From assembly GCA_018303845.1 (NCBI GenBank), contig JAGVXH010000004.1, forward strand, positions 1 to 64,000: a stretch of DNA of 64,000 nucleotides, given 5' to 3'. Below the pieces are notes generated by a model. The model ran no database searches and was not told the DNA's origin. It saw nothing but the letters and a program-made list of their open reading frames with translations. A program made the translations under genes and the position numbers. Source of the stretch: Candidatus Pacearchaeota archaeon (lineage in GTDB: Archaea > Nanobdellota > Nanobdellia > Pacearchaeales > GW2011-AR1). This document shows positions 9,664 through 27,158 of the stretch, one piece after another. Position 1 is the first letter of the stretch; each line of letters opens with the position of its first letter.

Positions 9664-10854
9664 TTATTCTCCTAAATACCCCTCCCCGTTAGGATAATTT
9701 TTCAAAGCATGTCTATAAGCGCTAGGAACTCCAGTATCAAACCAGGTAAAAACCTCAGCTCTCATTCCTTCTTCTATAAGAGAAGTAAATCCATTTGAAA
9801 CTTGAATTTCTCCCCCAATCAATTCATCATTATTTTCTAAAGCATTCCAGAAAACCTCATAGTCATAAACTCCAGCAAGCCCAATAAACGCATACTTATT
9901 ATCACTCTTAACTTTATCATCAATTCTAATAACCTTATTTCCAGAAACTGAAGCAGAGCAAAATCTAGAAGTGTCAGGAACCTCAGCCAAACCAAACCAA
10001 TTAAAATTAGGCTCAGGAATATCTTCAGAAACTAAAGTGTCAGCAGAAACAAAAATGAAAGGACACTGCAAGTACTGTTTACATTGTAATATAGAATACC
10101 CCGGCCCAGTCCCAGGTCCCTCAAACTTTCCAACATCAACAAAAGTAAGCTTCCTATTAATATAAGTAGAATTCAAGTAATCAATAACCATTCCCTTTTT
10201 GTATCCAACTGCAATAACTATCTCAACGTTCTCTGGAAATTTTTCAATAATATGACATATCGCAGGTTTCCCATTCACAGGGATCAATGCTTTATTAAAA
10301 GTCTTAGTAAACTCTCCCATTCTACTCCCAGTCCCTGCAGCAGGAATACAAACCTTATAATCATTAGAAAAAAACTTGTCATCTATTTGAATACAGGCAT
10401 CACAAACCGCGCCCTCGGCAGAAGCGGACGGAGTAACAAAGTCAGCAGCCTTCTTGGCCTCAATTCTAGCATTTCTAGGGGCAATTCCAAATTTACAATC
10501 CCTCAAAATAGGCGCATCAAAAATTCCATCTCCCATATAAGCAGTATTCTCAAATCCAAATTTTTCCTTAATGTAAGAATATCTATCTTTCTCTGTAATT
10601 AATTCAAGTCTATATCCCATATCAGAAATTCTTTTCTCAGAAATAGAAAATCCTCTTTTGTCAGCAGTGATAAAAACAATATTCAATTTATTCTTTAATA
10701 TTTTTAACCCATCTGCATCATGGGGCCCAAATATTTTATACACCTTCCCTTTCTCTGAATATAAAAACTGCCCCGTAGTCATTACTCCGTCAACATCAAG
10801 AATAAAATTATTTAACATGTTTCCTCCTAGTGAGAAACCGATAACTTTCATCAT
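9664..10854 (-). CDS. HAD phosphatase (KdsC-like) fused to nucleotidyltransferase
   Basis: N-terminal FILDVDGVMTTG...ITADKRG...YMGDGIFDAPIL (KdsC-type HAD); C-terminal IPAAGTGSRMGEFTKTFNKALIPV. Confidence 0.85.
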   Translation of the reverse strand: MMKVIGFSLGGNMLNNFILDVDGVMTTGQFLYSEKGKVYKIFGPHDADGLKILKNKLNIVFITADKRGFSISEKRISDMGYRLELITEKDRYSYIKEKFGFENTAYMGDGIFDAPILRDCKFGIAPRNARIEAKKAADFVTPSASAEGAVCDACIQIDDKFFSNDYKVCIPAAGTGSRMGEFTKTFNKALIPVNGKPAICHIIEKFPENVEIVIAVGYKKGMVIDYLNSTYINRKLTFVDVGKFEGPGTGPGYSILQCKQYLQCPFIFVSADTLVSEDIPEPNFNWFGLAEVPDTSRFCSASVSGNKVIRIDDKVKSDNKYAFIGLAGVYDYEVFWNALENNDELIGGEIQVSNGFTSLIEEGMRAEVFTWFDTGVPSAYRHALKNYPNGEGYLGE

Positions 10855-13908: not shown

Positions 13909-14427
13909 TTACAAAATCCAATGGTAATCGTGAGTATAATCATAATCTCGCTCACTAATCATCTTCAATCCATACTTCTCACATAACTTCAAAGTATCTT
14001 TATTAAAACTCCACCATCCAGGAACAAACTCCGTAGGAACAATCCCAAGTTCTTTTTTCATCCAGTCCATTGATTCTTTAAATAATTTATTTTGCTCTCC
14101 ATAATTCATATTCTTCATAGTAAGACAAAGATGTATGTGCAAACCTAATTTCCCCCAGTTTCTCATTCATAAATATCTCTCCTTCATAATCTTAGAAATT
14201 TCCTCTTTAGATAATTTTACATTAAAAGAATTCTTATAATAAGTATAATTGGTAGGTGTCATTAGATACCAACCCCGAGCCTGTTTCCCATCGCATCTTT
14301 TCTTAATTTCTTCCCAGCAATCATCGTCAACAACCAATTCTGTATGGACAGCAAGTGGCTTAAATCTAGAAACGACCCATCGAAAAGTATTATTAATGAC
14401 CGCAAGATAGTCTTGTTTTAATTTCAT
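13909..14427 (-). pseudogene. Polysaccharide-deacetylase-like protein interrupted by one in-frame TGA (14167-14169)
   Basis: The two ORFs share a frame and match 26610-27158; TGA sits where the paralog has Trp (ERYL*MRNWGKLGLHIHL vs ERYLWMISHGQRLELHAHL). Confidence 0.75.
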
Positions 14428-15010: not shown

Positions 15011-15673
15011 ATGGATGAAAAACTAAAAGAATTTCATAAAAAATTAAAAAAAAATTTAGAGAATCAAGAAAAATATTATGAATCATTCATCTATTCTAAA
15101 GAAGCTGGGTTTTATCAAGGGTTCGACAAAATAGAACTTAAGGGCTGCAGATCAAGCGAAAAAAGACTTGAAAGATACGACATAAAAGAATTCTTATCAG
15201 ACAGCAAGAAGGCATTGGATATAGGATGTAATTGCGGATTTTTCACGTTGCTTATTTCGGATCTTGTGTCTAAGATAGATGGAGTAGAAATAAACCCATT
15301 TTTAATACAAATAGCAAGAGACACAAAAGACTTCCTTAAAAATCACAATTCTTCTTTTTATACAACAAGCTTTGAAAAGTTCAGGCCAAAAGAAAAATAT
15401 GATATAATATTTTCATTAGCAAACGACGAAACAGTTGATGGAAACACTAAATTTACTTTTATAGAATATATTTTAAAAATAAGAAATCTATTAAATCCAG
15501 AGGGACTTCTAATCTTCGAAAGTCAGGCATTAAAAGAATCTTTAAACGAATTTCCAGAAAAAAAATATGAACACCTAAAAAAGCATTTTGACATATTGGT
15601 AGAAAAAAAGGTTCCAACAGATTATCCCTATAATGTAAAAGAAAGAGCCTTTTTTGTTCTGAAAAAAAAATAA
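15011..15673 (+). CDS. Class I SAM-dependent methyltransferase
   Basis: ALDIGCNCGFFTLLIS motif I; YDIIFSLAND. Confidence 0.8.
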   Translation: MDEKLKEFHKKLKKNLENQEKYYESFIYSKEAGFYQGFDKIELKGCRSSEKRLERYDIKEFLSDSKKALDIGCNCGFFTLLISDLVSKIDGVEINPFLIQIARDTKDFLKNHNSSFYTTSFEKFRPKEKYDIIFSLANDETVDGNTKFTFIEYILKIRNLLNPEGLLIFESQALKESLNEFPEKKYEHLKKHFDILVEKKVPTDYPYNVKERAFFVLKKK

Positions 15674-15677
15674 TTCA

Positions 15678-16811
15678 ATGAAACAACAAAACATAATAAT
15701 AATCTTACTAGACGGCGCTAGACATGATAGCCTAAAACTCCTTACCTCTTTCAATGCCTGGACAAAAAAGGGAACCACCTTCTCAAAAATGATAACTTAT
15801 GGCCCCCAGACAGTAACGGCCATTCATGCGCTCCTAAGCGGAATGAACGGAAACAGGAGTGGAGCAAACAACTACTACGGCATCCTAAATTTCAAGAAAA
15901 AACTTTGCAAAACACTCCCGCAATATCTCAAAGAATCAAACTACACAACCTCAGCAGACGTCCTACAAGATATAGTCCTTCCAAACCAAGGCTTCGACAG
16001 CATAACACTTCACGATGAAAAAAAAGACGACATAGTCCAAAAACATGTCAACTTAATTAAGCAACATGCAGAGTTAAGAAAACAAAATAAAAACTTCTTC
16101 TTGTTCCTACAATACAGCCCAATTCACACCTATGTAGTTCACGAAGTCCTAAAGAAATATGATTACGACGATTATAATTCCAAATATTTTAACAACCCAG
16201 AAAAAAATCTAGAAGAATACAATAAGATTGTTTCCAATACAGGGAAATACTTAGATAAAATAATGCAAACATCAGAAGAACTAGGTTTATTCAAAGACAC
16301 GCTATTCATTTTATTCTCAGACCACGGAGCAAGCGTAGGGGAGAAAGAAGGCGAACTAGGCTATGGAAGATTCTGCTATGATTATACAATTAAATCTTTC
16401 GCGACATTCATTCAGCCAGAATTCTTTCCAGAGCAAAAGGAGGTAAAAAAACTATCAAGAATAATAGACTTCTTCCCAACAATTCTAGATGTTCTAAATA
16501 TCCCAGAATCCCCAATGCCTCTAAAAATCCAAGGTAAAAGTCTGTTTCCCTTAATTCAAGACGAACCCGACGAAAGAATAGCACTTTCAGAAGCTTCAGG
16601 CGTAGAACAAAAACCAACCAATATCCCACCAAGAATACATTCCATTAGAACTCCAAACTGGAAGCTAATTTATAATACAGAAACAAAAGAAAAAGAAATA
16701 TATAACTTAGAAGAAGATCCAAAAGAAAAACAAAATCTTATCGGAACCAACCCTGAAAAAGAAAAAGAACTTTTCAAAAAACTATTAGAACTTAATCCAA
16801 GTATAAATTAA
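15678..16811 (+). CDS. Sulfatase/alkaline-phosphatase-superfamily protein
   Basis: IIIILLDGARHDSL, FILFSDHGASVGE, C-terminal NLEEDPKEKQNL. Confidence 0.85.
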   Translation: MKQQNIIIILLDGARHDSLKLLTSFNAWTKKGTTFSKMITYGPQTVTAIHALLSGMNGNRSGANNYYGILNFKKKLCKTLPQYLKESNYTTSADVLQDIVLPNQGFDSITLHDEKKDDIVQKHVNLIKQHAELRKQNKNFFLFLQYSPIHTYVVHEVLKKYDYDDYNSKYFNNPEKNLEEYNKIVSNTGKYLDKIMQTSEELGLFKDTLFILFSDHGASVGEKEGELGYGRFCYDYTIKSFATFIQPEFFPEQKEVKKLSRIIDFFPTILDVLNIPESPMPLKIQGKSLFPLIQDEPDERIALSEASGVEQKPTNIPPRIHSIRTPNWKLIYNTETKEKEIYNLEEDPKEKQNLIGTNPEKEKELFKKLLELNPSIN

Positions 16812-18157
16812 AATCTCTTATAAGATTCCTTTGCAATAAATTCCAAGACAGGATGAATAACGTAATAGTCCACTCCTTCATCCAAATTCTGTTTCGAAGT
16901 CTTAACCATGCCACTGTCAGCCAACTGCAAAACACTTTCTACTAAAGCCTCAGATCGAGTAAACGGGTCATAAATTCTCGTAGGGTCGATATCCCCAAAA
17001 GGCAAAGGAAATTTTTTCTGGGAAATAATTTCTCCCTGATCAATTTCGGGCATCATAATAAATGAAGTACACCACCAGCCATCATTTGCCAAGGTAGAAT
17101 AATAAGGGCAAGTGCTTCCCCTGTATTCTGGAAGTTTCCCAGGATGAACATGAATTATTTTTTTCCCAGCATTAAATATTTCCTTAAGAATTCCTCTTCC
17201 AGAAAAAACAAAATAATCCTCACTTCTATTTCCAACTGCCTCAACAACATTTAGGTCATTGCAAGAATTAGCAATAACCACTTCATAAGGAATACCAGCG
17301 TCCTCAAGGGATTTCTTCTCCGAAATAGCAGGATTAAATAAAATGTCTGAAGAACTTTTTGGAAGGCTATCTAAATTCTCTGAAGGTTTATCTGGATCTT
17401 CTAGCAAAATTACATAATTAGGATAAAGACCATGCCTAATCAAATTCTGCAGATAAGCTTTAGACCTATGAGTAGCTTGTAAAAACATCCCAAGGTTTTC
17501 AACAACCCTTTTTTCACAATTTTCTTTTTTATTCTCAGGTTCCCCGCGTTCCAACTTAGAGACATCTCCCAAAACCAAATCAACTAATTCATTCTCTAAA
17601 ATCAAAGCTTTCTTTAAAACTAAATCCACGCCACTTCCAGTATCCCGTCTAGCTATAATAAAATCATTCAGCTTAAGCATTGTAGAAAGCGCTTGCAAGT
17701 ATCCCTTCCCCTTTCTCTTGGCATACATTCCTAGTACCAAAGAAAAATAACAATAATATCTCAATTCTTCTTCCTCTTTAGACAAATTAATAAAATTCTT
17801 GTCATAAGATTTCTTCAACACTTTTAAATCAGCTTTCTTAAGAATTCTAAAAAAATGCCTCAACTCCTCTTTGGAAAAATCATCCCCATTCTCCAGAACA
17901 AAATACAATTGAAAAATAATCCTCTTAATTTCAAATTCCCCCCCACTTTTCAACTCTTCCTCGCAATAAACCTCCTCATCAAAATCTCTAGTGACACCAT
18001 TTTCCAATTCATTAATAACTCTAGTTCTTTTATTTCTATATACTTCCAAAAAATCTTCACTAAAATCAACAAAACCATAAGTCCCCTTCAATGATTGTTT
18101 TTCTTTCAAATCCCACGGATAATCTGTTTCGTTCATATGTGTAATTATACTTAACAT
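16808..18157 (-). CDS. Formyltransferase-domain protein with uncharacterised N-terminal region
   Basis: C-terminal IIHVHPGKLPEYRGSTCPYYS...PEIDQGEIIS matches the formyltransferase core; no recognised motif in the N-terminal half. Confidence 0.75.
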   Translation of the reverse strand: MLSIITHMNETDYPWDLKEKQSLKGTYGFVDFSEDFLEVYRNKRTRVINELENGVTRDFDEEVYCEEELKSGGEFEIKRIIFQLYFVLENGDDFSKEELRHFFRILKKADLKVLKKSYDKNFINLSKEEEELRYYCYFSLVLGMYAKRKGKGYLQALSTMLKLNDFIIARRDTGSGVDLVLKKALILENELVDLVLGDVSKLERGEPENKKENCEKRVVENLGMFLQATHRSKAYLQNLIRHGLYPNYVILLEDPDKPSENLDSLPKSSSDILFNPAISEKKSLEDAGIPYEVVIANSCNDLNVVEAVGNRSEDYFVFSGRGILKEIFNAGKKIIHVHPGKLPEYRGSTCPYYSTLANDGWWCTSFIMMPEIDQGEIISQKKFPLPFGDIDPTRIYDPFTRSEALVESVLQLADSGMVKTSKQNLDEGVDYYVIHPVLEFIAKESYKRF

Positions 18158-18220: not shown

Positions 18221-19057
18221 ATGAACAACCATAAACTCCTAGAAGGAAACCCCCCATCTAAAAGAGTTCTAGCCCAAATAAAAAAAAACATTAAAGAAAA
18301 AAAACTAAGCATCTGTTTAGCAATTATTCTAATAGGAGATAATTCAGCATCTAAAAAATATATAGAAATGAAAATGGCAGCCTGCAAAGAAGTAGGGATA
18401 AAAACAAAGTTTCTAGATTACACAGAATTTAACGAAGAAGAAATTATAAAAAAAATTAAAAAACTAAACGAAGATAAAAAAATAACCGGAATACTAATCC
18501 AACTACCTCTATTAAAAGAACTGGACACGGAAAAAATAATAAATACCATCGACCCCAAAAAAGATGTAGACGGATTAACAAAAATAAACGAAAGAAATCT
18601 GGAAAGCGGAAAAGAAACATTAGCTCCAGCCACACCAAAAGGAATACTAAAACTTCTAGAAGGTTATGGCATAAAACTAGAAAATAAAAAAATAGTTTTA
18701 GTGGGCATGGGAAAACTTGTAGGATACCCATTATCGATAATGCTAAAGAATAGAAAGTTAAATTTTACAGCCTGCGACGAGTTCACAGAAAACACAAAAG
18801 AAAAAGTAAAGGAAGCAGATATCCTAATAACGGCAACAGGAATTCCTCATTTAATAAAAGAAGATTGGGTAAAGCAAGGATCCATTGTGGTAGATGTAGG
18901 GTATTCAAAATTAAACGGAAAAGTAGTAGGCGACGTAGATTTCGAAAACGTAAAAAATAAAACGTCTTTCATAACTCCAATATTCGGAGGAGTTGGACCA
19001 ATGACAATTGCAACATTAATAGAAAATTTATACAATATAAAAAATAATTTAATCTAA
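18221..19057 (+). CDS. folD: Methylenetetrahydrofolate dehydrogenase/cyclohydrolase FolD
   Basis: ILIQLPLLKELD, DPKKDVDGLT, FGGVGPMTIATL. Confidence 0.93.
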   Translation: MNNHKLLEGNPPSKRVLAQIKKNIKEKKLSICLAIILIGDNSASKKYIEMKMAACKEVGIKTKFLDYTEFNEEEIIKKIKKLNEDKKITGILIQLPLLKELDTEKIINTIDPKKDVDGLTKINERNLESGKETLAPATPKGILKLLEGYGIKLENKKIVLVGMGKLVGYPLSIMLKNRKLNFTACDEFTENTKEKVKEADILITATGIPHLIKEDWVKQGSIVVDVGYSKLNGKVVGDVDFENVKNKTSFITPIFGGVGPMTIATLIENLYNIKNNLI

Positions 19058-21055
19058 AGGAAATTTTTTACAAAGCTCTATAACTTTTTTCTTAACTCTC
19101 TTCAAGACGTCTTCACTGTCATAATTTTCAAGAACATCCGCAATCATTCCAGCAATCTCTTTCATTTCATTCTCCTTCATCCCTCTAGTTGTAATAAATG
19201 GAGTACCAAGTCTAATCCCACTAGGGTTAAAGGGACTTCTAGTTTCTCCGGGAATCGTATTTTTATTAAGAGTTATGTTCGCAGAATCAAGCGCATTTTC
19301 AGCCTCTTTGCCCGCACACTTCATATTACTCAAATCAATAAGTATCAAATGATTATCAGTTCCTCCACTAACCAAACTTAAACCAAGTCTCTTCAATTCT
19401 TCAGCCAAAACTTTAGCATTTTTTACAACCTGATTGCCATATTCCTTAAAACTATCCGAAGAAGCTTCTCCTAAAGCAACTGCAATAGCAGCTGTAGTAT
19501 TATTGTGAGGACCGCCCTGAAGCCCGGGAAAAACAGCTTTATCTATCTGCTTAGCATACCTTTCTTTACACATAATCATAGCACCACGAGGACCTCTAAG
19601 TGTTTTATGAGTCGTTGTAGTTACAACATCCACAAACGGAAACGGAGAAGGATGATTCCCTGAAACAATCAGCCCAGCAACATGCGAAATATCTGCCATG
19701 CAAATAGCTCCAACCTCTTTAGAGATTTCAGCAAATTTCTCAAAGTCAATTTTTCTAGGATATGCGGTGGCGCCACAAACAATTATTTTAGGTTTTTCCT
19801 TCAATGCAAGAGCCCGAATTTTTTTATAATCTAAAAGACCAGTTTCAACATCTACCCCATAATGTACAAAATTATAAACCTGCCCAGTAAAACTAGCAAA
19901 ATGTCCATGTGTTAAATGCCCCCCTTCAGTCAAACTCATGCTCATAATTTTATCACCAGGTTTAACAAAAGCAGAATAAACTTCCAAGTTAGCAGGAGAG
20001 CCAGAATAAGGTTGAACATTCACGTGCTCTGCATTAAACAATTTCTTTGCTCTCTTAATTGCAAGTGTTTCAATTTTGTCAATAATCTTATTTCCACCAT
20101 AATATCTTTTCCCCGGATATCCTTCAGAATACTTATTCGTTAAAATGGAACCCATGGCCGTTAAGACAGCTTTGCTAACATAATTTTCCGAAGGAATAAG
20201 TTCAAGAGATTCTTCTAATCTCTCTTTTTCTTCATCAATCAATTTATCTATTTCCAAATCAGCATAAGAAAATTTTTCAATATTATAGAACCTTTCGAGA
20301 GTCCCCTCTTCCATCCATTTACACCCTAATTCATAATCCTCAACGGTATCAAACTCCATCCACCCTCGCTTTACCCGAACAGCTCTAACATCCAATCCCT
20401 TGTCTATTAATTCTTGCATAAAGTCAGTCATATAAGCCTTCTTAAAAGATTTAGAAGTATGCCAAGGAGTCTCCCATGATTCCTTAACTGCATTATCATA
20501 AATTTTTTCAATTATAGGGAGTGCGCCCCTGGAGAATTTTATCATCCCGACATACCGAGCATCCATATCTTTTTCAGGAGGGTTTGATACTCCAAGAGAA
20601 ATCATTTTATCATTCTCCCCAATAATAAAGCTTTCCGAATCTTCCTTCCAACTTCCAATTCTAGCAGTCCAATAATCCTTCCAATCCTCATCGCCAACAA
20701 TTCCAACATCAGCATCAGTTTCCATTAATTTCCTCAAAATTCTAGATTCAAATAAAACATCTCCATAAGAAAGAATAATATCATCATCAAACTCATCTCT
20801 AGCCTTAAATAATCCAACAACCATATGTGTATCATAATCAGTCTCATCAATATACCTAACTCCAGGAACCTGAATTTTTTCTGCAAGATGTTTCCTAACA
20901 ATAATAATATCATTAATCCCACAAGCACGAAAAGTCTCAACTTGCCTCTCAACCAAACTCTTCTCCGCAAATTCCAACATACATTTAGGAAGATTTTTGG
21001 TGTACTTCCCCAATCGAGTTCCCATCCCGCCAGCAAGAATTATAGCTTTAACCAT
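19049..21055 (-). CDS. Fusion: Cj1416-like cytidylyltransferase domain + serine hydroxymethyltransferase
   Basis: N-terminal IILAGGMGTRLGKYTKNLPKCMLEF...AYMTDFMQELID...GWMEFDTVED; C-terminal SHMT LIPSENYVSKAVL, YPGKRYYGG, VTTTTHKTLRGPRGA, FPGLQGGPHNN. Confidence 0.9.
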   Translation of the reverse strand: MVKAIILAGGMGTRLGKYTKNLPKCMLEFAEKSLVERQVETFRACGINDIIIVRKHLAEKIQVPGVRYIDETDYDTHMVVGLFKARDEFDDDIILSYGDVLFESRILRKLMETDADVGIVGDEDWKDYWTARIGSWKEDSESFIIGENDKMISLGVSNPPEKDMDARYVGMIKFSRGALPIIEKIYDNAVKESWETPWHTSKSFKKAYMTDFMQELIDKGLDVRAVRVKRGWMEFDTVEDYELGCKWMEEGTLERFYNIEKFSYADLEIDKLIDEEKERLEESLELIPSENYVSKAVLTAMGSILTNKYSEGYPGKRYYGGNKIIDKIETLAIKRAKKLFNAEHVNVQPYSGSPANLEVYSAFVKPGDKIMSMSLTEGGHLTHGHFASFTGQVYNFVHYGVDVETGLLDYKKIRALALKEKPKIIVCGATAYPRKIDFEKFAEISKEVGAICMADISHVAGLIVSGNHPSPFPFVDVVTTTTHKTLRGPRGAMIMCKERYAKQIDKAVFPGLQGGPHNNTTAAIAVALGEASSDSFKEYGNQVVKNAKVLAEELKRLGLSLVSGGTDNHLILIDLSNMKCAGKEAENALDSANITLNKNTIPGETRSPFNPSGIRLGTPFITTRGMKENEMKEIAGMIADVLENYDSEDVLKRVKKKVIELCKKFPLD

Positions 21056-21633
21056 TCCTTAGAACCCCCATTCTCTAAAAATTTATCAACCACCTTATCA
21101 TAAATTTTCTCATCTCTTTCAGGATGCCACATAATTCCAATAACTTTCTTGTCAGAGTGATAAATCCCCTCGATACTTCCATCTTCCCCAAGGGCGAAAA
21201 CTTTCAACCCCTTTCCTAGCCCAGATTTATGAAATCCAAGATCATGATAACTATTTACATTTTCTTTAGCCCCATTAATTTCAACATAATGGTTTTTGGC
21301 AACATGCCCCTCTATTCTCTCCAATTTCCCGCCAAAAAACAAATTAATAAATTGCATTCCCTTGCAAATTCCCAAAACAGGAATATTCTTATCTATGGCA
21401 GTTTGCAAAAGTTGCGTCTCTACATAATTTCTATTTTTAGAATCAGCCCCTCCAGATAGTATCAAAAAATCAGGATTCAATTCAAAATATTTCCCAACAT
21501 TTTTCATAGAATTTGGAATCGCAACAAGTATAACATCTTTTTTCCCAAAATAAGAAGAATAAGCCGACTCTAAAACATCAATGGAATTTCCAAAATTATT
21601 TTCTTCCTCTCGTTGACTTATCAAGGCTATCAT
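21040..21633 (-). CDS. Class I glutamine-amidotransferase-like hydrolase (Cj1417/peptidase C26-like)
   Basis: ILSGGADS, LGICKGMQ nucleophile elbow, NSYHDLGF, GIMWHPERD. Confidence 0.85.
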   Translation of the reverse strand: MIALISQREEENNFGNSIDVLESAYSSYFGKKDVILVAIPNSMKNVGKYFELNPDFLILSGGADSKNRNYVETQLLQTAIDKNIPVLGICKGMQFINLFFGGKLERIEGHVAKNHYVEINGAKENVNSYHDLGFHKSGLGKGLKVFALGEDGSIEGIYHSDKKVIGIMWHPERDEKIYDKVVDKFLENGGSKEWLKL

Positions 21634-21678
21634 ATTATAAAAACCCCATAAATATATTTAAATCTTTATCAATCCCCA

Positions 21679-24039
21679 TCAAGCCCAAATCCTCCCACTC
21701 TCGCAATCCAGCGTCACCTTAGCCCCATCAATCAACTTATCATAAATAACCCCGCATCCAATAGCCGCAGGAAGCCCAAACTCTGCACACCGAATCGACA
21801 TATGAGAAGCAACTCCACCATATTTAGTGATAAGTCCAGCGATCCCCTTAGTAAAAATCCAGTCATATCCAGGATCCCCACTTTCAATCAAGACAATCTT
21901 ATTCTTTATGTGGAATTTCCTCTCATTCACGTTCTTTAAATTAACCACGTTCTTTGTTATCTTTTTATTGGTAATATAATTAGGCTTAGGAGAATATTCT
22001 TTAACAACATCCAAATCCTTTTCGGTAAAAATTATAGAAGGTAAAAATAACTTATCATTAATAGCTTTTCTTTTTTTATTCATAGAAATATTTCTTTTCC
22101 AATAATTCGTCAAGCCATTCCTATTTTTTATATTAGCAAAAATATCTTCAATAGAAAGAAAAGACATTTCTTTTCTCGTAAATCCCATTTCTTTACCCGC
22201 AATGGCAATTAGCTCAATAGCGTCACTCAAATTCTTTGTAAATTCAAATTTAGATAGTTCTCTAGCTTTAGTGGCATTCTCTATAAAATTAAATAAAAAT
22301 TTAGCATCAAACTTTAGGCCAGATTTTTTCAATGCAGCGTTAACACTACTCTCCGATTTTTTAGATAAACAAAATCTTTTGCTCTTCGCTTCTTGCATAT
22401 GAATACCATGACTAACTTCTAAGAGAGATTTGTTCTGGTCATATCTTTTGCTGGTTATATCATAAGTTCCAGGTCGCAAATGTCCATATTTTTTCAAGAA
22501 AGATTCTTCATCTAATTTCCCCTTTACTAGTTTATTAAAATCATTACTAAACTCTGTGGCAACAGTATTAATCGATTCAAAAAACGAATCAGCCTCTTCT
22601 CTAGAGAGGGCGCCCTCATCACAAAGAGACTTTAACAAAATTTTTCCAATAAACCCGAGTCTTGCAAGTCTAGAAAATTGTACAGTCCCATGTTCTTTGC
22701 ATTCATTTAATAAAATTTTAGCATAATCTAAAACCTGAAATACAATATCCTTTTCATAAATAATTTTTATTTTATTTCTAGTCTTAGATAAATCTTTAGA
22801 AGAGGAAATGTCATTTTCTATGTTTTTTTTAGAATTGATTATCAAAGAATTGGTAAGGCACATTAGGGCATTCTTTAATTCCCTAATCTCCTGTTCATTA
22901 AAATTTTTAGCACGCAAATTCTCAAATTTTTTCTCCAAAGAAAAATCATAACAAGTAAACAAAATATTGAATTCAACCTTATCCTGATATTCGGGATTAC
23001 TAGCCAGACTGTCCAAATAATAATTTACTAATTTTCTTCTCAATCCAGGAGAAATATCTTTTGGGACAAAAGAATTAAAGGTTCTTCTAACATCAACATA
23101 GGGTTTGTTTCCAAATAAATAAACTAATCTTCCATCTCCAACATCGTAATACCCTTGAGTCTGTCGAGCAATACTCCAAGCCCTTTCGGTTATAATATAA
23201 TTATAAAGAGAATAATCTAGTAATCCAGAAGAGTCCCCGATTATTTCAGCGGGATTCCAATCCGGCATATCTGCCAAAATTGTGTGATTACCCTCTAGCC
23301 CTTTAATTTTTTTATTTAATTTCCTAAAACCTTTCTTTATTTCCTCAATTTTTTTAAAATACACTTCATCCCCGAATTTAATATTTTTAGTAACAAGTGG
23401 CCTAGCTTGAAAAATTATAACATCAAAATTTTTATTAATTCCAAATTCTATATCTATAAGGCTAGAATTAAATAAATTCTCTATCTCCCTAACGGATTCA
23501 ATCAATTTGTCAAATATTTTGTTGCCTATTCTTTTGCAATTCCTTATAATTTTTATTGATTTATTTTCAATTCCAGATGTAACACTTTCGGTAGAGCCAC
23601 TAGAGTCATCATAATTAATAATATAATAAGGAGCTCCATTTTCACTTCCGCGAGTAAAAACAACCCCACTCATAATAATTTCTCCAGACTGATTTTGCAC
23701 TAAGACTTGATTAAAGGCACTTTGGGATTTTTTATTATGATAAGATTTTATGACTTTTACTATAGCTTCTTTAATTTCCCGAACATTTTGAGAATCTACA
23801 TTCAAAACAGAGTCAAAGAATCCAGCCATAGAACTCTCAGCAGTATCCTCGGAAATAGCCGAACTTCTAACAACTATCCTATCTCCAAATTTCTTTTTTA
23901 TGTGTTTTACTATACTTTCTGGATTATTTCTCCAAGCAGATTCACTAAAAAAAAACGAGGGCTCAATAATGGATTTCTTCAATCTTTTTTCCAATATCTT
24001 TAAGGTGTTGGCCTTAGTGGAAAACTTTTCATATTGCAT
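21679..24039 (-). CDS. PEP-synthase-like phosphotransferase, candidate L-glutamine kinase (Cj1418-like)
   Basis: N-terminal VRSSAISEDTAESSMAGFFDSVLNV (PPDK/PEPS ATP-grasp); C-terminal swivelling His domain GLITKYGGVASHMSIRCAEFGLPAAIGCG. Confidence 0.8.
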   Translation of the reverse strand: MQYEKFSTKANTLKILEKRLKKSIIEPSFFFSESAWRNNPESIVKHIKKKFGDRIVVRSSAISEDTAESSMAGFFDSVLNVDSQNVREIKEAIVKVIKSYHNKKSQSAFNQVLVQNQSGEIIMSGVVFTRGSENGAPYYIINYDDSSGSTESVTSGIENKSIKIIRNCKRIGNKIFDKLIESVREIENLFNSSLIDIEFGINKNFDVIIFQARPLVTKNIKFGDEVYFKKIEEIKKGFRKLNKKIKGLEGNHTILADMPDWNPAEIIGDSSGLLDYSLYNYIITERAWSIARQTQGYYDVGDGRLVYLFGNKPYVDVRRTFNSFVPKDISPGLRRKLVNYYLDSLASNPEYQDKVEFNILFTCYDFSLEKKFENLRAKNFNEQEIRELKNALMCLTNSLIINSKKNIENDISSSKDLSKTRNKIKIIYEKDIVFQVLDYAKILLNECKEHGTVQFSRLARLGFIGKILLKSLCDEGALSREEADSFFESINTVATEFSNDFNKLVKGKLDEESFLKKYGHLRPGTYDITSKRYDQNKSLLEVSHGIHMQEAKSKRFCLSKKSESSVNAALKKSGLKFDAKFLFNFIENATKARELSKFEFTKNLSDAIELIAIAGKEMGFTRKEMSFLSIEDIFANIKNRNGLTNYWKRNISMNKKRKAINDKLFLPSIIFTEKDLDVVKEYSPKPNYITNKKITKNVVNLKNVNERKFHIKNKIVLIESGDPGYDWIFTKGIAGLITKYGGVASHMSIRCAEFGLPAAIGCGVIYDKLIDGAKVTLDCESGRIWA

Positions 24040-24135: not shown

Positions 24136-25521
24136 ATGAAAAAACCAAATATTATTTTTATAATGATTGACGCTCTAAGGGCAAGAAATTTAGGTTGTTA
24201 TGGATATGATAGAAATACCTCTCCAAATATAGATACGCTTTCAAAACAAGGAACAAGATTCACAAATGCATTTTCTACCAATAATTCTACTAATAAATCG
24301 TTGATGGCAATGCTTTCTGGAAGGCATATTCCACTAGACAAAGAAAAAAATATTTTAGTTACCAAGTCGGAATTAAATTCATTTTCAAACTCAGGCGGGA
24401 AATTCCTATCAGAAAGATTAAAAGAACATGGCTATAAAACTTATTGGTTAAATGATTTATACGGATGGCAAAAGAGAGGATTTGATTTTTATTTTTCAAA
24501 TAATAAAAAAAATCAACCCATATCCCTTTTTCAAAACATAAAAGATTCATCAAGATTAAGATCAGTGACAAGAACCTTTTTTCATTATATGCCTAAAAAA
24601 ATGTCAGACAATATAAAATTAAAATATGGAAGAAACAACGGAGAAATGGCAACGGAAAAAGCAATCCAAATAATTAAGGAAGAAAAAGATCCATTCTTTT
24701 TATGGATATATTACAATAGCCCACATATACCATATAATCCAAAGCAATTTACAAATAAATTTGTAGCACCAAAAACAAAGAATTATTTCTTTAAGGAACT
24801 AAAAAAGCACAAAATAAAAAAAGAAATGGTAGGATTTTTCAAAGGAGCATTCTCAAAATATGCAACATTTGAAGATATAATCGCAAGGTACGATTCAGCA
24901 ATTTATCATGATGATTATTTGATAGGGCAAGTAATAGAAGCACTAAAGGAAAAGGGGATTTTTGACAACACGTACATATTCCTATTCTCAGATCATGGAG
25001 AAAGTTTTGATACACAAAATGTGTTCTTTAGTCACCATGGATTATATGACGTATGCACAAATTTCCCACTTATAGTCACAGGTCCAACAATCCCAAAAAA
25101 TAAAATTAACGAGTCATTCGTAAAGCATGAAGATATGGTTCCGACAATTTTGGATTTATTAAAAATAAGATATTCTTCATTAGAGTTTGACGGCAATAAT
25201 CTTTTATCAAAAGAAAAATTAAGTTATACCACAGCAGAAGAAGCAGGTTATCAGAATAAGAGGTCGATAAGGACAAAGGACTTCAAATATATAGAACCAG
25301 TTTCAAAAGAAGATGTTGTCTGCGAACTTTGCAATGAAATTCACGGAGGAAAGTTAGAGCTTTATGATTTAAAAAAAGATCCTGAAGAAAAAAATAACAT
25401 AGCCAGCGAAGATACCAGCACACTTACTGAAATGAAAACTCTATTGGAAAAACATTTGAAAGAGGAAAAACAAATTAACGAAAGGAGAAGGATAGCACAT
25501 AAGTTGAAAAATTCTAATTAA
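24136..25521 (+). CDS. Sulfatase/alkaline-phosphatase-superfamily protein
   Basis: PNIIFIMIDALRARNLGCYGYDRNTSPNID, LFSDHGESFD, LYDLKKDPEEKNNIA. Confidence 0.9.
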   Translation: MKKPNIIFIMIDALRARNLGCYGYDRNTSPNIDTLSKQGTRFTNAFSTNNSTNKSLMAMLSGRHIPLDKEKNILVTKSELNSFSNSGGKFLSERLKEHGYKTYWLNDLYGWQKRGFDFYFSNNKKNQPISLFQNIKDSSRLRSVTRTFFHYMPKKMSDNIKLKYGRNNGEMATEKAIQIIKEEKDPFFLWIYYNSPHIPYNPKQFTNKFVAPKTKNYFFKELKKHKIKKEMVGFFKGAFSKYATFEDIIARYDSAIYHDDYLIGQVIEALKEKGIFDNTYIFLFSDHGESFDTQNVFFSHHGLYDVCTNFPLIVTGPTIPKNKINESFVKHEDMVPTILDLLKIRYSSLEFDGNNLLSKEKLSYTTAEEAGYQNKRSIRTKDFKYIEPVSKEDVVCELCNEIHGGKLELYDLKKDPEEKNNIASEDTSTLTEMKTLLEKHLKEEKQINERRRIAHKLKNSN

Positions 25522-26609: not shown

Positions 26610-27158
26610 CTATTTTTGAGTATTCACGAAATCAACAACAGGATAATAATCATGTGTAAAGTCATAATCTCTTTGTCCAATCATTTTCAAATTAAGTTTT
26701 TTTAGAATTTTCAAAGTATCATTATTGAAAGACCACCATCCGGGAACAAATTCTTTTGGAGTCACGCCGATTTCTTTTTTCATCCAATAATAAGAGTTTT
26801 TCAAAATTTTTTCTTGTTCTTGAAAGGACATATTCTCCATAACCAGACAGAGATGCGCATGTAGTTCCAGTCTTTGCCCATGACTGATCATCCAAAGATA
26901 TCTTTCCTTCATAATTTTTGACAAGTCAGAGGTAGACATTTTAATATTAAAAAAAGATTTATAATAATCTATATTTTCAGGGGTCATAACATACCATCTA
27001 GAAACTCTGCCGCGAGCTACTTCCTTTTTGATTTCATTCCATACGGAATCAATCATAATAGCTTCGGTGTGAACTGTAAGCGGTTTGAATCTTATTACAG
27101 TCCATTCGTAAAATTTTCTAAAAATAGAAAAAATATTTCTTTGAAGTTTCATATTCAA
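26610..27158 (-). CDS. Polysaccharide-deacetylase-like protein
   Basis: LELHAHLCLVMENM...VPGWWSFNNDTLKILKKLNLKMIGQRDYDFTHDY; intact paralog of 13909-14427. Confidence 0.6.
   Translation of the reverse strand: MNMKLQRNIFSIFRKFYEWTVIRFKPLTVHTEAIMIDSVWNEIKKEVARGRVSRWYVMTPENIDYYKSFFNIKMSTSDLSKIMKERYLWMISHGQRLELHAHLCLVMENMSFQEQEKILKNSYYWMKKEIGVTPKEFVPGWWSFNNDTLKILKKLNLKMIGQRDYDFTHDYYPVVDFVNTQK

Follow-up and report, generated by a model that had tools for sequence, protein, structure and literature searches.

P-N chemistry in glycans is known from Campylobacter. The C. jejuni route was reportedly established by the Raushel group; it starts with a glutamine kinase and leads by way of CDP-glutamine to CDP-NH2 (cytidine diphosphoramidate) and 3'-phospho-CDP-NH2. 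This phosphoramidate route has been reviewed in part (PMC6429109). For the archaeal Borg elements an O-methyl phosphoramidate (MeOPN) cluster was predicted in 2025 (PMC12660748). As a prediction, the occurrence of phosphoramidate in archaea is thus not wholly new, and a preceding sequence-only reading of our DNA, which knew of no described archaeal phosphoramidate glycan, is incomplete in this respect.

The locus of the present study belongs to a DPANN archaeon and is located in the window, i.e. the whole stretch of 64,000 nucleotides that was analysed. Like the MeOPN genes Cj1415-Cj1422 of C. jejuni, it combines genes of the glutamine kinase (GlnK), hydrolase and cytidylyltransferase types in a surface-polysaccharide region, the likeness being one by family. 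Unlike the C. jejuni system, it features a cytidylyltransferase fused to serine hydroxymethyltransferase (SHMT), adjoining genes for FolD and a DUF-formyltransferase protein and a candidate transferase of the alkaline-phosphatase superfamily, and no Cj1415-like kinase was found at the window. With the Borg cluster it shares the archaeal host, the surface-decoration region and a CTP:phosphoglutamine cytidylyltransferase-like gene; the Borg cluster differs in that it resides on an extrachromosomal element of methane-oxidising archaea and was assigned by structure, and SHMT, FolD and formyltransferase are not mentioned in the accessible part of that report (PMC12660748).

Gene content of the locus

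The source assembly is a draft MAG of 1.09 Mb and about 80% completeness, and absences from the genome are therefore provisional. Glycosyltransferases and many methyltransferases across the window characterise it as a surface-polysaccharide region, in which the genes for GlnK, the class I amidotransferase (GATase) and the cytidylyltransferase (19049-21055) follow each other tightly packed on the minus strand (Table 1). GlnK and GATase genes are separated by 45 bp, and GATase and cytidylyltransferase genes overlap by 16 bp. All three neighbouring ORFs were found where the sequence-only reading had placed them, and the motifs AYMTDFMQELID and GWMEFDT that it had quoted are both present in the cytidylyltransferase domain; the C-terminal SHMT of 19049-21055, FolD and the formyltransferase had escaped it. 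FolD and the proteins designated Sulf377 and MT220 are encoded on the opposite strand and therefore do not form a single transcription unit with the trio. ORFs 14167-14427 and 26610-27158 (minus strand; 86 and 182 aa) have similar N-termini (RFKPL.VHTE) and are apparently duplicated, truncated copies on either side of the cluster. Another protein (9664-10854), adjoining sugar-synthesis genes, unites a KdsC-type phosphatase domain with a nucleotidyltransferase domain.

Table 1. Features of the locus and their positions in the window.
Feature	Position	Strand	Basis
Glutamine-kinase-like protein GlnK, 786 aa	21679-24039	-	NF004508, PF01326 + PF00391, invariant motifs
Class I GATase, gamma-glutamyl-CDP-amidate hydrolase-like (Cj1417-like), 197 aa	21040-21633	-	NF045546, alignment
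LicC-like cytidylyltransferase domain (Cj1416-like), fusion residues 1-262	20270-21055	-	PF12804, 1jyk match
Complete SHMT domain fused to cytidylyltransferase	19049-20269	-	PF00464, 537 bits
FolD, methylene-THF dehydrogenase/cyclohydrolase	18221-19057	+	PF02882/PF00763
All-helical domain of unknown function (DUF), N-terminal part of fusion	17509-18157	-	own profile DUFx, 39 bits, residues 8-198
Formyltransferase-fold domain (FMT)	16808-17508	-	own profile FMTx, 198 bits, residues 217-447
Alkaline-phosphatase-superfamily protein (Sulf377), candidate phosphoramidate transferase	15678-16811	+	PF00884
Class I SAM methyltransferase (MT220), candidate O-methyltransferase	15011-15673	+	Pfam methyltransferase families
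Second alkaline-phosphatase-superfamily protein, arylsulfatase-like	24136-25521	+	PF00884, 171 bits

Two Pfam domains only are recognised in GlnK. One is the PPDK_N ATP-grasp domain, with a score of 55 bits; the other, with 50 bits, is the PEP-utiliser mobile domain, which contains the phospho-histidine His746, the swivelling histidine noted in the sequence-only reading. The central domain is family-specific (motifs ADMPDWNPAE and KFEFTKN), and a Pfam search of GlnK for the PEP/pyruvate TIM barrel gave no match. The best curated family is NF004508/PRK05849, which presumably includes Cj1418: GlnK reaches 852 bits over the full length (cut-off 501), compared to 63 bits for the PEP synthase family. 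A plain PEP synthase, the best hit that would have spoken against the sequence-only reading, is thus not what the search returned, and identity of GlnK with PEP synthase is contradicted by these scores and the missing barrel. Separate and much stronger PPDK_N proteins are encoded in the same genome at C2:200533 and C6:233498. Most DPANN relatives of GlnK carry an additional TagD-like cytidylyltransferase domain at the N-terminus and many bacterial ones an NTPT-like domain (L036, L044-L054, L065); GlnK of the window has neither.

The GATase has an intact triad of Cys90, His170 and Glu172 in the alignment, and the catalytic residues of the trio as a whole are intact. Its best NCBIfam model is NF045546, gamma-glutamyl-CDP-amidate hydrolase, with 103 bits, which is far under the equivalog cut-off of 250 (runner-up 58 bits). 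Six further trio GATases, of archaeal and bacterial origin, were tested; the same model was best for each of them, again under the cut-off (89-131 bits).

The closest PDB match of the cytidylyltransferase domain is a CTP:phosphocholine cytidylyltransferase (1jyk), and the domain is 44-48% identical to trio-linked archaeal relatives. Related cytidylyltransferases also serve phosphonates and other substrates, as in PEP-mutase fusions of locus L083; fusions of PEP mutase to cytidylyltransferases of this type are also reported for Borgs (PMC12660748). The C-terminal ≈400 residues of the protein constitute a complete SHMT, in frame with the cytidylyltransferase and with intact active-site motifs (PLP lysine in TTHK 481-484, YSEGYPG, DISH and NPSG.RLG). 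It is the sole SHMT match in the assembly. The fusion is documented in one assembly, a draft MAG, and a search of 378 genomes of the class for a second fused frame found none.

Distribution and linkage of the trio

The GlnK cut-off was passed by seven of the 279 genomes of the phylum, including the window's own, and a scan of the genome collection added 42 GlnK loci from archaea (DPANN, marine group I Thaumarchaeota, a euryarchaeote MAG) and bacteria (Patescibacteria, Cohnella, Streptomyces, Verrucomicrobia, Desulfobacterales, Vibrio, Prochlorococcus and others). GlnK is also present on 14 plasmids. None of the loci obtained in these scans came from Campylobacter. With profiles made from the very loci that were scanned, a GATase was detected at 44 of 51 GlnK loci and a cytidylyltransferase-family domain at 47, the latter count including NTPT-like domains that form part of certain kinase proteins. 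Contig ends account for some of the non-detections in this set, and near-duplicates (L061/L107, L046/L076) are included. The trio is linked in most of its unrelated relatives, an arrangement far beyond chance.

In the PMSF tree of GlnK the window falls into a supported clade of 13 rows, 12 of them archaeal, inside a clade of 18 rows with 16 archaea. Genes resembling APS kinase, which we take to be the family of Cj1415, are found at 18 of the 51 loci. The DPANN clusters L060, L061/L107 (L107 being from the genus of the window) and L110 have the same trio as the window, arranged as a consecutive run of kinase, methyltransferase, GlnK, NTPT and GATase; they differ from the window by the APS-kinase-like gene and the methyltransferase, by the absence of nearby FMT, SHMT and FolD, and by their GlnK, which forms a separate clade in the tree. 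Trio loci span at least two archaeal GlnK lineages. A Cj1415-like kinase is present in sister genomes, but the search for one elsewhere in the window's own ≈80% complete genome, as the sequence-only reading had suggested, returned none, with weak 22-bit P-loop matches only. The Woesearchaeota locus L045 (CP070803) shares with the window the trio, MT220, Sulf377, DUF and FMT, with FolD nearby. It differs from the window by a TagD-like domain at the N-terminus of GlnK, by separate genes for DUF and FMT, by an unfused SHMT ≈28 kb away and by the presence of CysD/CysN-like genes.

Several peculiarities of the relatives may be noted. On the L057 contig, labelled Gammaproteobacteria, GlnK falls inside the marine group I clade, and the contig is probably a misbinned thaumarchaeal one. 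Phosphonate genes (a PEP mutase-NTPT fusion, TPP enzyme halves resembling phosphonopyruvate decarboxylase, and a TagF-like gene) are located immediately upstream of the trio in L083:1377-9068 and L085:2640-10328, which places P-C and P-N chemistry within one operon. CysD/CysN-like (sulfate adenylyltransferase) genes adjoin the trio in three unrelated loci (L045:15434-17498, L089:5472-7877 and L065).

Folate-related genes and candidate transferases

The helical DUF and FMT are fused in a single protein here (16808-18157) and encoded by two adjacent genes in relatives. An AlphaFold2 model of the FMT part, predicted from a shallow alignment (mean pLDDT of 69 for the whole model), matched ArnA, Fmt and WbkC in Foldseek with E-values down to 1.3e-11, and the AF2 model of a relative's DUF is helical and had no PDB match at E<=0.001. 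FMT presumably shares the fold of these enzymes, but the catalytic Asn-His-Asp set is not complete: H336-V-H338-P-G stands where NxHP is expected, together with D373, and all FMT members have histidine at the position of the catalytic asparagine while retaining the catalytic histidine and aspartate. Formyl transfer is therefore not assured.

The DUF-FMT pair is present in ten trio loci and lies directly within compact trio operons of unrelated bacteria (L062, L063, L067, L071, L079), for instance in the run kinase-DUF-FMT-GlnK-GATase-NTPT of Cohnella (L062). This six-gene run is carried by Cohnella panacarvi, a cultivable species. Searches for relatives away from GlnK detected neither FMT nor DUF in plasmids and no FMT protein in phages. 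In the window's own assembly the fusion is the only recognisable formyltransferase-fold protein and the neighbouring FolD is the sole FolD match; ThyA and ThyX were not detected in this ≈80% complete assembly. Established enzymology and the lack of other users in the incomplete genome suggest that SHMT and FolD feed FMT, to which we give an even chance. Several trio genomes without FMT near the trio nonetheless carry SHMT and FolD, and the rule that these two occur only together with FMT was dropped. Near the L045 cluster, a FolD has an N-terminus resembling 5-formyl-THF cyclo-ligase (L120:9204-10580).

Sulf377 has an invariant threonine (Thr45, in PQT or PYT) at the nucleophile position, metal-site Asp and His residues and no leader discernible by eye at its N-terminus. 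The C/S-x-P-x-R formylglycine signature is absent at the nucleophile, and a sulfatase reading was rejected on this ground. Relatives directly follow the cytidylyltransferase in L045, L056, L057 and L058, and in Cohnella (L062) a sulfatase-domain protein of 607 aa is encoded immediately upstream of the kinase. Sulf377 is tentatively proposed as the phosphoramidate transferase of the locus. Other loci have instead genes similar to TagF (CDP-glycerol phosphotransferase-like), CDP-alcohol phosphotransferases or sulfotransferases, from which we infer that the transferases differ from lineage to lineage. A pathway role of the second alkaline-phosphatase-superfamily protein, whose linkage to the trio is weaker, is uncertain. 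A relative of MT220 (260 bits) is located between GATase and cytidylyltransferase in L045, and MT220 is trio-linked in further loci. Loci with an APS-kinase-like gene repeatedly have sulfotransferase-like proteins encoded next to the trio (L060, L061/L107, L110, L072, L075, L050); 3'-phospho-CDP-NH2 may serve these proteins as a PAPS-like donor.

Proposed pathway and alternative explanations

The trio probably represents a CDP-NH2 module in the surface-polysaccharide region of a DPANN archaeon, a reading well supported by genomics through the linkage of the trio in most of the 51 relatives. What was observed directly is which genes are present, the families they belong to, the intactness of their active sites and the conservation of their linkage; all substrates named in the following were deduced. 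The reaction would be initiated by conversion of glutamine to phosphoglutamine, followed by formation of CDP-glutamine by the cytidylyltransferase; the hydrolase of GATase fold would then cut off glutamate to yield CDP-NH2. By family scores and linkage this route, predicted already from the sequence, explains the trio best, but its expected companion, the Cj1415-like kinase, was not found in the ≈80% complete genome. The fused SHMT and the neighbouring FolD could provide 10-formyl-THF from serine for the adjacent formyltransferase-fold protein. The phosphoramidate, possibly modified, would be moved from CDP to the surface glycan, perhaps by Sulf377, and O-methylation by MT220 is a possible step. 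In view of its similarity to the known module up to CDP-NH2, the lack of a Cj1415-like kinase and the addition of a folate arm, we read the locus as a kinase-less, folate-linked form of the known pathway. The most speculative parts are the identity of the transferase and the target of formylation, which may be the phosphoramidate or the amine of a neighbouring sugar. That FMT, with histidine for asparagine and supplied with 10-formyl-THF by the SHMT fusion and FolD, formylates the P-N group or CDP-NH2 and so creates an N-formyl-phosphoramidate surface tag in several bacterial phyla and DPANN archaea is an unlikely proposal; we know of no such product. In the literature searched, no paper connected phosphoramidate with Woesearchaeota, or with a formyltransferase alongside adenylylsulfate kinase.

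The trio could also produce CDP-phosphoramidate while SHMT, FolD and FMT serve an independent N-formylation of surface sugars of the WbkC/ArnA type, both being neighbours through a shared glycan. This is a possible explanation, since the fold matches of FMT are sugar and Met-tRNA formyltransferases and the region is rich in glycosyltransferases and methyltransferases. It does not account well for the location of DUF-FMT inside compact trio operons of the unrelated bacteria listed above, nor for the fusion of SHMT to the pathway's own cytidylyltransferase, and FMT deviates from the sugar formyltransferases at the catalytic asparagine.

Doubts about the trio itself carry less weight. An action of the kinase-like protein on another amide or amine, leading to a CDP-activated compound other than CDP-NH2, would agree with the additional nucleotidyltransferase domain, TagD-like or NTPT-like, that relatives have at the N-terminus of the kinase, and with the phosphonate genes mixed with the trio in some loci. 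We regard it as quite improbable because the best curated family of the GATase is a gamma-glutamyl-CDP-amidate hydrolase, because a glutamyl intermediate is implied by the retention of this gamma-glutamyl hydrolase alongside the kinase at most loci, and because the clusters with kinase and methyltransferase reproduce, by family, the MeOPN gene set. Ordinary PEP synthase, PuuD and RfbA/GlmU-type enzymes, adjacent by chance, have the superfamilies in common with the trio, but 852 versus 63 bits for GlnK, the stronger PPDK_N proteins elsewhere in the genome and the conservation of the trio across phyla leave next to no room for them; a PEP synthase/PuuD/RfbA reading was rejected on scores and linkage.

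In 2022 the kinase of the phosphoramidate pathway was still termed specific for C. jejuni (PMC9561416). The present survey finds linked trios among DPANN archaea and marine Thaumarchaeota as well as in many phyla of bacteria. It identifies a helical DUF with a formyltransferase as a recurring partner pair, and in addition a folate arm. Our results suggest that a rare P-N chemistry is widespread in archaea and includes an undescribed variant; if FMT indeed acts on the phosphoramidate, this variant would represent a new class of surface modification.
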